Source: Tubulanus polymorphus
Lineage: Eukaryota; Nemertea; Palaeonemertea; Tubulaniformes; Tubulanidae
Direction of reading: 5' to 3'
NCBI RefSeq assembly: GCF_964204645.1
Contig: NC_134034.1
Location: 2,450,072 to 2,514,071, forward strand
Length of the DNA: 64,000 nt
The notes below the pieces were generated by a model that worked only from the letters and a program-made list of their open reading frames with translations, did no database searches and was not told where the DNA came from. A program made the position numbers and the translations under genes. Position 1 is the first letter of the stretch; every line of letters starts with the position of its first letter. Below, in pieces: positions 25,001-31,000 of the stretch.

Positions 25001-28000
25001 TAGCTATTGTGGGTTGTTTTTATTTTTCTTTCTAAATATATCAAGGTTACCAAAGGTGTTCAAATTCAGATGTTTCTACGGACTTCAAATATAGAATCAT
25101 AAACTGTAATCGACTGGAAAAATTAACTGTAATTCATCACCAAAAGCATTACAAGCAGAGATTAATCTATCGTTTCTATCTAACCGAAGGATTGATAATT
25201 TATTTTTATTATTCTTTATTTTTCTTTCTTTGTTAAAATGAATTTTACACACGCCATCTGGTGGCGAAGTTGGTGTTTATTTTGGATGAACTTAATCATA
25301 CAACTTAAGCAGAGTCAGTTATTCATGTCCAACTCTTCAAAAAGTCACAGATCTCAAAGCTTTCATTTTAAGTTTTTAATTCTCACTCCAAACCCTGCTC
25401 TTCTAACAAATCAGTACATGAAAAAACCATCTAACAAATCAGTAAGTACACAAAAAAACCATCTACTGAAAGTCGGGGGCTTTTTGTGGCTTACAGTATT
25501 ACAATTGAATTTACCAAGATCCGGTTTTGATATTTAACGAAATCTCTTTTTACTTTATTTCAGTCTCAAAAGTTGGGAATTTTAATCACGGTTTCATGCA
25601 ATGTCATCAGCATCCTGTTTCTTGTACCGGCTGTAATTATTTTCATCTACTATAGGTAAGTACTGCACTGACCAAAATTTACATTAGGCAGCCGGTTAGC
25701 TTTTAAAAGAATCGTGAATCCATTAAATGTTATTTGTTTTGGCCAAACAGTCAAAGCTTAAACTTGTCTTCAATACGTTGTGAAATTCGTCTACGAATAG
25801 ATCTTTGACCTAGACTGGTCCTAAGTTGTTTGATTAGTTATAAAACTAAAACGAACTGCTTCGACTCGTCGAAGTCATTATATTGGTTTCAGAACAAAAA
25901 AGTACTTTGGCAGGTCGTCAACCTGGTAGATAAAACTGAGTTTAGACTGGTCTTAGGTTGTTAGTTTGGTTATAAAACTAAAATGAGCTTAGACGGGTCT
26001 TAAATTGTTAGATTGGTTATAGAACTAAAACGAGTTAAGACTGGTCTCGAGTTGTTAGATTGATTATAGAACCAAAATGAACTTAGCCTGGTCTTAAGTT
26101 GTAAGATTGGTTATAGAACTAAAATGAGTTTAGACTGGTCTTAGGTTGTTAGTTTGGTATAAAACCAAAATGAGCTTAGACGGGTCTTAAATTGTTAGAT
26201 TGGCTGTAGAACTAAAACGAGTTAAGACTGGTCTCGAGTTGTTAGATTGATTATGATACACTTGGCTTTATCCTCTTCTATCCACTCTGGCTGTGGAATT
26301 GACGTTTGGCTTAATGAATACAAAACAGATGCATGTAGTTAAAACTGAACAACAAACGAAAAAATCGTTTTATTCTTCCAAGTAGAAGTAAACCCACAGA
26401 TGTCATACGATAGCTCGCAGAATTCGTAATCGATTATCAATATTTATTACCCGACGAGATAAACCTCTAGTAGAGATAATAAAAATCCGTCTTCGTCGGT
26501 AGATGATCGATAACCGTAGTGTGTATCAGACGACACCTGCGAGGTATCAGACCGGCAGACGACAGGGCTAATACGCGATTATAGAAACAAGTACGGTTCT
26601 AATAGCCATCTGAATCGACCAGTCTCTGCCGTCTGCTGACGACAAAATATCAACATGATTGGTTGTTGAAATTCGACACTGTTACGAATATATATATATA
26701 TATATATATATATATATATATATATATATATATATATTTGTTATAACCGCTTCCAAGCGGGCTAGTTCTGTTGGCCCACTGCTTAGCTCGCTTTCTTACT
26801 AACCCTGTTTAAATCGCTCGAAATTGGCTCGAATATCGATCGTGCGGCTATCAATCCTCGGACTAATTTATTTCCAATTGAGATCGTTTGGCAATTAACT
26901 GCACATAAACCTCAATTGCCGCGGTAACCTTTTAACGAGACGACGCCATTAAATCATGAAACGTCGCGTCGCTTCACTGAAGGAATTAGTCGTAGAACGA
27001 TTAATAATAACAATCGGGGTTTATTTAAATTAACGAGCACCTTGCGATCGATAAATTTCAACAGCCGTTATATACCGGAAGTCATTCATTTAGTCGCGGA
27101 TTTGCGGACTGTTGAACGCGAAATCCGCCGTTTGACAAATCACGCGACGGATCAGATAAAAATAGTTGGGATTAATCGAAAAGATGATGATTCGAACTTA
27201 AAAAGAAACCCGAAAAGAATTAGATTTATTGCCGTCTCATTTTCATCGTTAACTCTGTCTGTTCTAATTTCTAATGGAACCGTAAAAATATTGACGCCTG
27301 GGGATTTGTAGCGCGTGAGGATCCACTATCGGCACATTAGGCAGTTTTTGCTGGATCCTCACGAGGTATAGAATGAATTAAATAACACGATCGACTAACC
27401 GTTGGGATACCTGGTGGATCCTCACTTGACACAAGTGGAACCTTCTATTGCCGCAGAAGTTGATGTCCTACTGCACACTAGCGACACCTGGTGGATCCTC
27501 ACCTGCCACAAGTGGAATCTTCTATTGCCGCAGTAGTTGATGTCCTACACACTTGCAACACTAAGGGTGCCCTCACTTGCCCGATGTGAAATCCTGAAGT
27601 CTATGTCCATCACACCAGCGACACCTAGTGGATCCTCACAAGTGGGATCATGGCGCAATAGTTTATGTCTTACTGTACACTAACGACACCTGGTGGATCC
27701 TCACTGATAAACTTAAATCAAATGATGTAACTTGTATCTCTTTGTTTCAGAGCTCTACTAGCCCAACACCGAGTCAGACTTCATTTAAACCTATTCCTGT
27801 CGTTTATAACCAATGGAATCATGATCATCGTGTGGAACATCGTCATCACATACAACACACTCGATAATCCAAATGGCATCACTGTCAACGAAAACTCGGT
27901 AAGTTGTAGCTCTTCTGAACACCTACAGGGGCACCACTGTCAATAAAAAGTATTTGATTAGTTTGAGAACTTCTTAACACCCAAATGGGCAGCCACTGTC

Positions 28001-31000
28001 GATGAGAACCCAGTAAAATTAGTATATATTTCTAAACACGCCCAGGGGGCACCAGTCTCAATAAGAAATACGTTCGTAAGACTTAGTACTTATAACACCT
28101 GCAGGGGGAGCCACTGTCAATGAGAACCCAGTAAAATTAGTATATATTTCTAAACACGCCCAGGGGGCACCAGTGTCAATAAGAAATGCGTTCGTAAGAC
28201 TTAGTACTTATAACACCTGCAGGGGGAGCCACTGTCAATGAGAACCCAGTAAGTTTAGTATATATTTCTAAACACGCCCAGGGGGCACCAGTGTCATTAA
28301 GAAATACGTTCGTAAGTCTTAGTACTTATAACACCTGCAGGGGAGCCACTGTCAATGAGAACCCAGTAATCTATAGTATATATTTCTAAACGCGTCCAGG
28401 GGGCACCAGTGTCAATAAGAAATACGTACGTCAGTCTTAGTACTTTTAATGCCTACAGGGGGAGCCACTGCCAATGGTAGTTTCAGTAAGTTAAAGTATT
28501 TCTAAACCCGTCCAGGGGGCACCACTGTCAATAAAAAATACGTACGTCAGTCTTAGTACTTTTAATGCCTACAGGGGGAGCCACTGCCAATGGTAGTTTC
28601 AGTAAGTTAAAGTATTTCTAAACCCGTCCAGGGGGCACCACTGTCAATGAGAACTCGGTTAGTTATAGTATATATTTCTAAACACGCCTAGGGGGCACCA
28701 GTGTCTATGTCACTGTCAATAAGAAATACGTTCGTAAGTATTGGTACTTTTTAACACCTACAGGGGGAGCCACTGTCAATGGTAGTTTCAGCAAGTTTTC
28801 TGATTTCAGTATTTCTAAACCTGTCCAGGGGGCACCACCGTCAATGAAAATTGGCAAGTTAAAATACTTCTGAACACTAGGATGAACCGCGGTCAATGAG
28901 AACAACGGCGAGATATGGCACTTCTAAGCACCTCTAGGTGGAACTAGTGTCATTGAAAACTCGATAAGTTATAGGACCTCAAATCGTGTCATATCAGCCG
29001 ATAAGCCTATCGCTTAACTGAAGTATCAGTCGATTCTGACGTCCAAAATGACGTACGTGAACGCTAGCAGTTTGCTCTTCTTGCGCTGAGCCTGCGTTTT
29101 CTCACATGATGGCGAATTCATCCCCTGATCAAAGCGATCGCGAAAAATTAACCTAATTTCCGTATTTGACTAATCGGCAAAGTTGGTTCGAGTGATGAAA
29201 TTCGGTAACTATGATAATTAAACCGGAGGTACCCCCCGAGCAATATTCCGCGACAAGTTTTACTGAGGCCTAATTTCTACTCGCGTAGACGGCGGTACGT
29301 AGTAACTTCGTCTGGGGAATTAGCATCGCGCTGATTAAATTCGATGTTTACATAAGTCATTAGGTACAATTACAACAACACAAACATGTCGACGGTCTCG
29401 TTAAAACGCCGACTTCGTCAAGCGTCGGAGTTCTGCATTAGTATTGATAGTCAACATGTTTTTTTTATTTTATTTTAAACGTTCATTGCCTCCTGGGCTG
29501 TGAATTTCAATAAGCCTGGCCATACGATTCAAGAATAACCGATTATGATTCGTACGAGTGCGCTATATAAGAAAATAGATTAATATTATTATCATTATTG
29601 TTATCATTGTCATCATGATTATCATCATCATAATTGCAATTATCATTTATCATTAAGAACCAAACTTGGGTCCTGCATGTTTGACAATAAAATGCGCTGA
29701 ATAAATTCCATAGTTGTGAGTTAAGATTTGACTGGGAGTTACCTTATTGAAAAATGAACCAACTTTGACTCGGAGATAACTTATTGAAAATGAACCAATT
29801 TGAATCAGAGTTAACTTATTGGAAATGAACCAATTTGAATCAGAGTTAACTTATGAGAAAATGAACCCATTTGAATCAGAGTTAACTAATTGAAAATGAA
29901 CCAAATTGAATCAGAGTTAACTTATGAGAAAATGAACCAATTTGAATCAGAGTTAACTTATTGAAAACGAACTAATGTGAGTCAAAATCAACTTATTCAA
30001 GTTAACTCTAACTCGCAAACTGTAAAAAAACCGAATCCAGTATCTGGCAAACTGTGTAACGACAAATAAGGTCGTAATGAATTTTCGATCGTATTTCGTG
30101 AAATTAACCGCTTGTGCTTTGATCAGTTGATTGAGATTGTTAACCGATTTTCTGACCGGTTAAACACGACCGGTTTATACGTCTGCCGAAAACGTATCGA
30201 CATCTGAGAAATTCTGATAAACATTGCGAGGCGATTAATCGACGTTTCATCCTCTCACGGTAATCAATGAGTCTTCGCCCAGCCACCCACTCGCGAAGCA
30301 CAGGCTCCGGCATTACTAGCCGATACTGGCGCCACCTGCCATTATACTTGTAAACGATCTATATTTACGATCTAAGATTTTGCTGTTGTTTTACTATTTT
30401 CAGTGGTTCAACAAGTTGTACGTGGGCCAATTAGTTGTATCGGTTTAACTCTGGACTCTGGACCCAGTTCCACACGTGGTGTGGGTTTAATTCGACTCTG
30501 AATCCAGTTCCACAGTCGTGTGGGTTTAATTTGACTCTGAATCAAGTTCCACAGTCGTGTGGGTTTAATTTGACTCTGAATCCAGTTCCACAGTCGTGTG
30601 GGTTTAATTTGACTCTGGATCCAGTTACACAGTCGTGTGGGCCTAATTCGACTTGGATCCAGTTCCACAGTTGTGTGGGTTTAATTTGAATCTGGATCCA
30701 GTTACACAGTTATGTGGGTTTAATTTGACTCTGGATCCAGTTCCACAGTGTTGTGTGGGTTTAATTTGACTCTGGATCCAGTCCCACAGTGTTGTGCGGG
30801 TTTAATTCGACTCCGAATCCAGTGCCCTTAACCATCCAAGTTCCACAGTTGTGGGTTTAATTTGACACTGAACCCAAATCCACAGTTGAGGGTTCAATTC
30901 TACTCTGGACCCAATTCCCCGTTTGCGTGGGTTAAACTCAACTCGTCCCATTTCACAATTGTGTGGATTTATTCTGATTCTGTATCCAGTTCCACAGTGT

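Follow-up and report, generated by a model that had tools for sequence, protein, structure and literature searches.

An intron array in a nemertean class B1 receptor gene, probably derived from the adjacent exon/5' splice-site border

Introduction

Exon stuttering, the repetition of coding-exon borders within adjoining introns, has been described in chicken, where it affects 236 introns of 115 genes and where dot chromosomes carry 190 of these introns (Hron et al. 2026, PMC12954441). Here we describe an array of similar build in a 64,000-nucleotide (nt) stretch of the genome of Tubulanus polymorphus (Nemertea; RefSeq assembly GCF_964204645.1, contig NC_134034.1, positions 2,450,072 to 2,514,071 of the forward strand), which as a whole we call the window. 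The array lies in an intron of a putative class B1 G protein-coupled receptor (GPCR) gene. It very probably arose by tandem duplication of the exon/intron border followed by expansion, a decayed instance of exon stuttering that would be spliced out as intron.

In chicken, the exon parts at the border measure 20 to 187 nt (median, 36), the copies number 1 to 44 (median, 4), the stuttered spans run from 112 to 23,555 bp, and the affected introns vary extensively in length within the species (PMC12954441). The same authors report finding no stuttering in other vertebrates except in GC-rich gerbil genes (data not shown there) and leave the mechanism to speculation on GC content and DNA structure; the term itself occurs in no paper other than PMC12954441 in the literature that we searched. 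With 30 nt of exon, 18 copies, and a span of about 1.1 kb, the Tubulanus array falls within the chicken ranges. As in chicken, part of a coding exon and its splice site recur as imperfect direct tandem repeats in the neighboring intron (PMC12954441), the source lies at the border (the founder, 27,869-27,923, spans 27,898/27,899 and so includes the splice site), and the expansion is strictly local, with no other genome copy of the array found. The host differs, being a nemertean and not a bird. Set beside the chicken cases, the array appears to be an older, decayed case of exon stuttering as named there.

The Rogers model of intron gain describes new introns (PMC4974935, PMC3443670, PMC2891723), and a fission-yeast multi-copy case cited in PMC4974935 has a 24-bp exonic segment repeated. 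That model shares with our locus a tandemly duplicated segment that reaches into an exon and carries splice signals along, but there a new intron is made, whereas here an intron common to paralogues would merely have been lengthened. Intronic minisatellites, or variable-number tandem repeats, resemble the array in their head-to-tail units, higher-order dimer, homogenized center, and diverged flanks; unlike these repeats in general, the array has a coding exon with a working donor as its first unit.

Results and Discussion

The edge of the exon ending at 27,898 is unit zero of an 18-unit intron array that reaches to about 28,985 with all units in register. This region (C10:2,477,940-2,479,056) lies 2.48 Mb from the contig end and occurs once in the 268-Mb genome of 77 contigs. 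Its features and those of the flanking exons are as follows, with a slash marking the exon/intron border here and below.

27751..27898, + strand: coding exon for transmembrane segment 2 (TM2) and the first extracellular loop (7tm_2 and PDB matches; phase 0 end, frame checked)
27899..27904, + strand: true 5' splice site, TCG/GTAAGT (weight matrix, U1 pairing, same break in paralogues)
27869..27923, + strand: founder unit (unit zero), 30 nt from the exon end and 25 nt from the intron start; limits placed to within a few nt
27924..28985, + strand: array of 18 diverged founder copies, U01 to U18 (spacing, profile, founder identity)
28041..28626, + strand: homogenized part, U03 to U12, with two alternating unit types in a dimer of about 118 bp (U10 = U12)
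31737..31887, + strand: next coding exon (TM3), AGCKFLSTL..., with acceptor TTTCAG/G

The anchor sequence CACTGTCAATGAGAA occurs first at 27,880, in the exon edge, and 18 more times from 27,935 to 28,945. The step from the exon to the first copy is 55 bp, equal to the founder length of 55; of the 17 spacings that follow, 14 measure 57 to 60 bp and three measure 72, 65, and 52 bp. The copies are 60 to 78% identical to the founder at 27,869-27,923 (mean, 70%); the exon's CAAATGG is retained in U02, and AACTCG is retained, or nearly so, in U13 and U18. Tandem-repeat listing gives a 118-bp period with 6.2 copies at 89% over U03 to U12, and like-type units in mid-array are up to 94 to 100% alike (U10/U12, 100%; U04/U06 and U09/U11, 96%). 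Such identical or near-identical units suggest recent change in the array, and a homogenized center with diverged edges is what unequal exchange usually leaves behind, a process that would account for this pattern. A sequence-only reading of this stretch had aligned the exon end and donor about 18-fold with units of 57 to 60 bp, quoted GAAAACTCGATAAGTTATAG from the last unit, and proposed later amplification of a dimer, and it agrees with the array on all of these points. It gave the last bases of the exon as CTCGG; since the donor GT starts at 27,899, the exon stops at 27,898.

The likeness between the exon edge and the array goes well beyond chance. The junction at 27,870-27,912 scores 50 against the array, compared with maxima of 32.5 in 500 query shuffles and 29.5 in 200 array shuffles, and the 24 nt that end at 27,899 score 36 on their own (query shuffles, maximum 26; array shuffles, maximum 24). 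A profile drawn from the 18 intron units without the exon matches 27,875-27,922 at E=5.5e-6; its best match in the 64 kb outside the exon edge and array has E=0.59. Further, among ten candidate donors at 7 exon ends of the gene, with neither the first exon of the ectodomain nor the end of the TM7 exon among them, that at 27,899 alone beats its shuffles (55 versus 32), the other nine scoring 19 to 29.5 against shuffle maxima of 27 to 38.5. Chance similarity is ruled out by the shuffles and the array-only profile. The proposal of the earlier reading that a duplicated exon end and its donor seeded the array, which it had exposed to exactly this comparison with chance, therefore survives it, and is also backed by the 55-bp spacing and by the paralogue described below.

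The host gene is, by its predicted product, a class B1, calcitonin-receptor-like GPCR. The exon ending at 27,898 joins the exon at 31,737 in phase 0, and the joined translation of 27,751-27,898 and 31,737-31,887 encodes TM2 to TM3 of a class B1 GPCR (Pfam 7tm_2, E=4e-18). Its top PDB matches are the GLP-2 receptor (5.5e-12) and the calcitonin receptor (7.2e-12), and the alignment with the latter spans PNG before the exon border and CK after it. With the human calcitonin receptor as the query, tblastn returned four significant stretches (E, 3e-9 to 2e-4) and collinear but weak matches for TM1, TM4, and TM5 (E, 0.38 to 4.4); identity to this query is about 34 to 40% for three TM-region matches and 68% for the ectodomain stretch. 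A regular-expression search for the TM4 to TM7 exons gave no match.

Because direction cannot be read from sequence identity alone, an older intronic minisatellite might in principle have given the exon its end and donor, through gene conversion, a displaced splice site, or a similar event. We consider this reverse polarity very unlikely. The exon end aligns with the calcitonin receptor loop (PNG...CK), and in two sister cases presented below, a conserved-domain match reaches within one residue of the border, both of which argue against it. The paralogues do so as well. Three for which both exons could be identified (L034, L035, and L036) have the intron at the identical phase-0 position; for a fourth (L037), the TM3 exon alone was found. 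The exon end of L034, AACTCG/GTAAGT, matches that of the window gene at all 12 nt, and a search of L034 with the array profile found no match to the array (best E=1.6). Since a paralogue lacking the array shares both the exon end and the intron position, the exon edge would predate the array and the array would derive from the exon. Most likely, then, the exon end is the older of the two, and the polarity runs from exon to intron.

Other arrays in the window belong to dispersed families, such as repeats of about 77 bp and of 39 bp, and the TM2/TM3 intron of L034 contains a 47-bp array (L034:607-1048) related to the window array at 25,931-26,254. These related 47-bp arrays in introns of paralogous receptor genes look like a dispersed family. 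A mobile or dispersed repeat, introner-like or of a minisatellite family, could similarly have landed beside the exon, an explanation to which we give next to no weight. Whole-array and dimer searches return this locus alone, with no second array copy found genome-wide, although these searches pass over very common words and might miss single diverged units. A 16-mer from the unit, allowing one mismatch, occurs at nine other genome places (reversed control, 0), but at the four of these nine that were examined, the array profile match extends to 17 to 24 nt at most. The coding sequence inside the first unit likewise speaks against a repeat that arrived from elsewhere. The genome searches indicate a strictly local expansion and not a sequence at many unrelated loci; they lead us to reject a dispersed element, the nine short one-mismatch matches notwithstanding.

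Under the exon-to-intron origin that we favor, tandem duplication would have put 55 bp of the exon/intron border (30 nt coding and 25 nt intron, donor included) head to tail into the intron, and slippage or unequal exchange would have raised the copies to 18. A dimer may then have spread through the middle of the array while the outer copies diverged, with the exon edge presumably held by coding and splicing constraint as the copies drifted. Such drift would have left every copied donor weaker than the original, with the array removed as ordinary intron.

GTAAGT is kept in 5 of the 18 units, with G at -1 in none of the five. Their positions are exactly those given in the sequence-only reading (28,249; 28,312; 28,486; 28,602; 28,734), which took them for a ladder of decoy donors.

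28249..28254, + strand: best array donor-like site, CCA/GTAAGT (score, 7.22 versus 8.71 for the true donor)
28312..28739, + strand: other GTAAGT copies at 28,312, 28,486, 28,602, and 28,734 (-1 base C, A, A, and C, respectively)
27944..27946, + strand: first in-frame stop past the true donor, reading the exon onward

We scored 400 GT/GC sites in 27,800-31,759 with a weight matrix and calculated U1 pairing for the best-scoring 40. The true donor ranks second of the 400 at 8.71, behind a site at 29,977 (8.75), and among the top 40 it has the strongest U1 pairing, -9.3 kcal/mol, compared with -7.6 for the best array site. If the array were maintained as a regulatory donor ladder, acting through exon extension, recursive splicing, or U1 sequestration, the survival of GTAAGT in five units would make sense, as would the CAG/G acceptor-like sites in the units, which are as rich in pyrimidines as the true acceptor or richer. 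We nevertheless judge such a ladder very unlikely. Donor-like sites in the array are rarer than in 300 dinucleotide shuffles (score of at least 6, 1 versus a mean of 5.2; at least 4, 9 versus 13.9), and inspection of the array units found AG/GT, which a recursive site requires, in none of them. Any array donor in use would lead into the stop at 27,944 and so truncate the receptor, and the junction RNA at 27,840-28,120 folds unremarkably (z=+0.85; 160 of 200 shuffles fold as well or better). The decoy ladder is thus not supported, given the absent G at -1, the shuffle counts, and the U1 pairing of the true donor, and neither recursive splicing nor U1 sequestration, both raised in the same reading, finds support in the sequence. 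Most likely, tandem duplication and unequal exchange produced the array as a tolerated side product, and it is no regulatory device.

Exon-edge arrays in this genome are not a one-off. A genome pattern search for three GGTAAGT spaced 22 to 52 or 53 to 83 bp apart gave matches listed up to contig C6, among which, with a dispersed 31-bp family (6 places) set aside first, 17 distinct arrays were inspected. Among these listed matches, 3 of the 17 arrays begin with an exon edge of 20 to 54 nt, and the ETFA-like array begins with a donor and a shorter exon part.

C2:425 kb: FAK-like (L057), unit of 54 bp x 7.3, exon part 20/20 nt; the array makes up about 379 nt of the 437-nt intron (about 87%)
C2:31.70 Mb: class II tRNA-synthetase-like (L076), 72 bp x 3.0, exon part 40/42 nt; the array takes up about 173 nt of the 214-nt intron (about 81%)
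C5:24.83 Mb: proprotein-convertase-like (L077), 87 bp x 4.0, exon part 54/54 nt
C5:24.82 Mb: ETFA-like (L081), 19 bp x 9.9, donor plus about 6 nt of exon; PF00766, 1.5e-23

The conserved-domain match extends over residues 11 to 77 of 78 in the tRNA-synthetase-like case (PF00587, 4.1e-12), which we take to be of the prolyl type, and over residues 1 to 44 of 45 in the proprotein-convertase-like case (P-domain PF01483, 6.4e-11), where the next exon was not recognized in the sequence examined at L077. The FAK-like case matches focal adhesion kinase in PDB (1e-34) over residues 2 to 78 of 96, so its exon end is not covered; its unit, GTAAGT...CCTAAC...CTACAG/G, has donor, branch-like, and acceptor signals. 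The ETFA-like exon part measures about 6 nt by eye; automatic comparison gave 0 nt, since position -1 of the first copy is A where the exon has G.

The remaining 13 of the 17 comprise two ambiguous arrays, one coding repeat, and ten arrays without a coding exon at the edge as judged by eye, without gene prediction. Both ambiguous arrays are possible further cases: L046 (C1:812 kb) has an open frame ending at the first donor, and L085 (C6:18.49 Mb) has an open frame before the first donor with no Pfam match. At L078 (C3:23.91 Mb), the repeat, which includes GGTAAGT, stays open as coding sequence (GKSIDQYGGSDKSIDLYGG...) and apparently lies in tandem within an exon.

With contig ends taken as chromosome ends, 8 of the 17 listed arrays lie within 0.5 Mb of one (expected fraction, 0.036; P=5e-8), compared with 0 of 6 places of the dispersed 31-bp family. 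The FAK-, tRNA-synthetase-, convertase-, and ETFA-like arrays, all four exon-seeded, are 39 to 425 kb from a contig end, and the last two are about 15 kb apart near the same end. Arrays of repeated AGGTGAGT were seen at C1:31370333, C1:31685137, C6:22541311, C10:1503078, C10:11074178, and C11:13854409.

Several observations weigh against reading the window array as exon stuttering. The chicken cases are tied to GC-rich dot chromosomes, by reported association and not by definition, whereas GC content is 0.36 to 0.44 over the cases described here and 0.41 to 0.43 at the window array, and the window array is more diverged than those cases, its similarity being old (mean, 70%). The published screen kept blastn-short matches of at least 20 nt and at least 42.1 bits, and the window array reaches 24.3 bits at best, although that threshold appears in the source as a noise filter set on chicken and not as a definition; the FAK-like (40.1) and ETFA-like (20.3) arrays also fall below it, and the tRNA-synthetase-like (67.9) and convertase-like (107) arrays pass. 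Finally, donor patterns compared genome-wide with reversed controls give 162 versus 181, 180 versus 159, and 82 versus 245 places; being no commoner than the reversed motif, donors as such would not be favored.

The same anatomy recurs at ordinary GC content across several conserved, mutually unrelated genes, in arrays of differing age, which suggests that high GC is not needed. We tentatively raise the possibility, itself rather doubtful, that exon stuttering is a general change of animal genomes, not confined to bird dot chromosomes or GC-rich genes, by which introns are rebuilt from coding sequence. If so, duplication-prone regions, here mostly near contig ends, would copy exon/5'-splice-site edges outward into introns, and units such as the FAK-like one could yield new micro-exons or introns. 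The window array would then represent a late, decayed stage and the other cases fresh ones. Together, young (95 to 97% identical) and old (70%) cases would offer material on how arrays start, how they affect splicing, and how decoy donors fade.

The array units also carry a CTCF-like core, CCCAGGGGGCACC. Against what we take to be the CTCF consensus (CCASYAGRKGGCRS, 14 positions), 10 array sites reach 12/14, compared with a mean of 0.12 in 100 array shuffles. Given this excess, and a window rich in CTCF-like motifs, the units might have been amplified because they had gained the core, making the array a cluster of protein-binding sites, but we find this extremely unlikely. The ten sites are copies of each other and hence not independent, and no array site reaches 13/14 of the consensus. 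Across the window (1-64000), 22 candidate CTCF-like cores reach at least 13/14, versus 0 for the reversed consensus, and 52 versus 6 reach at least 12; examples lie at 8904, 10616, 25251, 32761, and 39965. Many of them are inside the dispersed minisatellite of about 77 bp, and others are in unrelated contexts. A sample of 77 kb taken from 22 further loci shows a small excess, with 2 versus 0 cores at 13 or more and 12 versus 2 at 12 or more.

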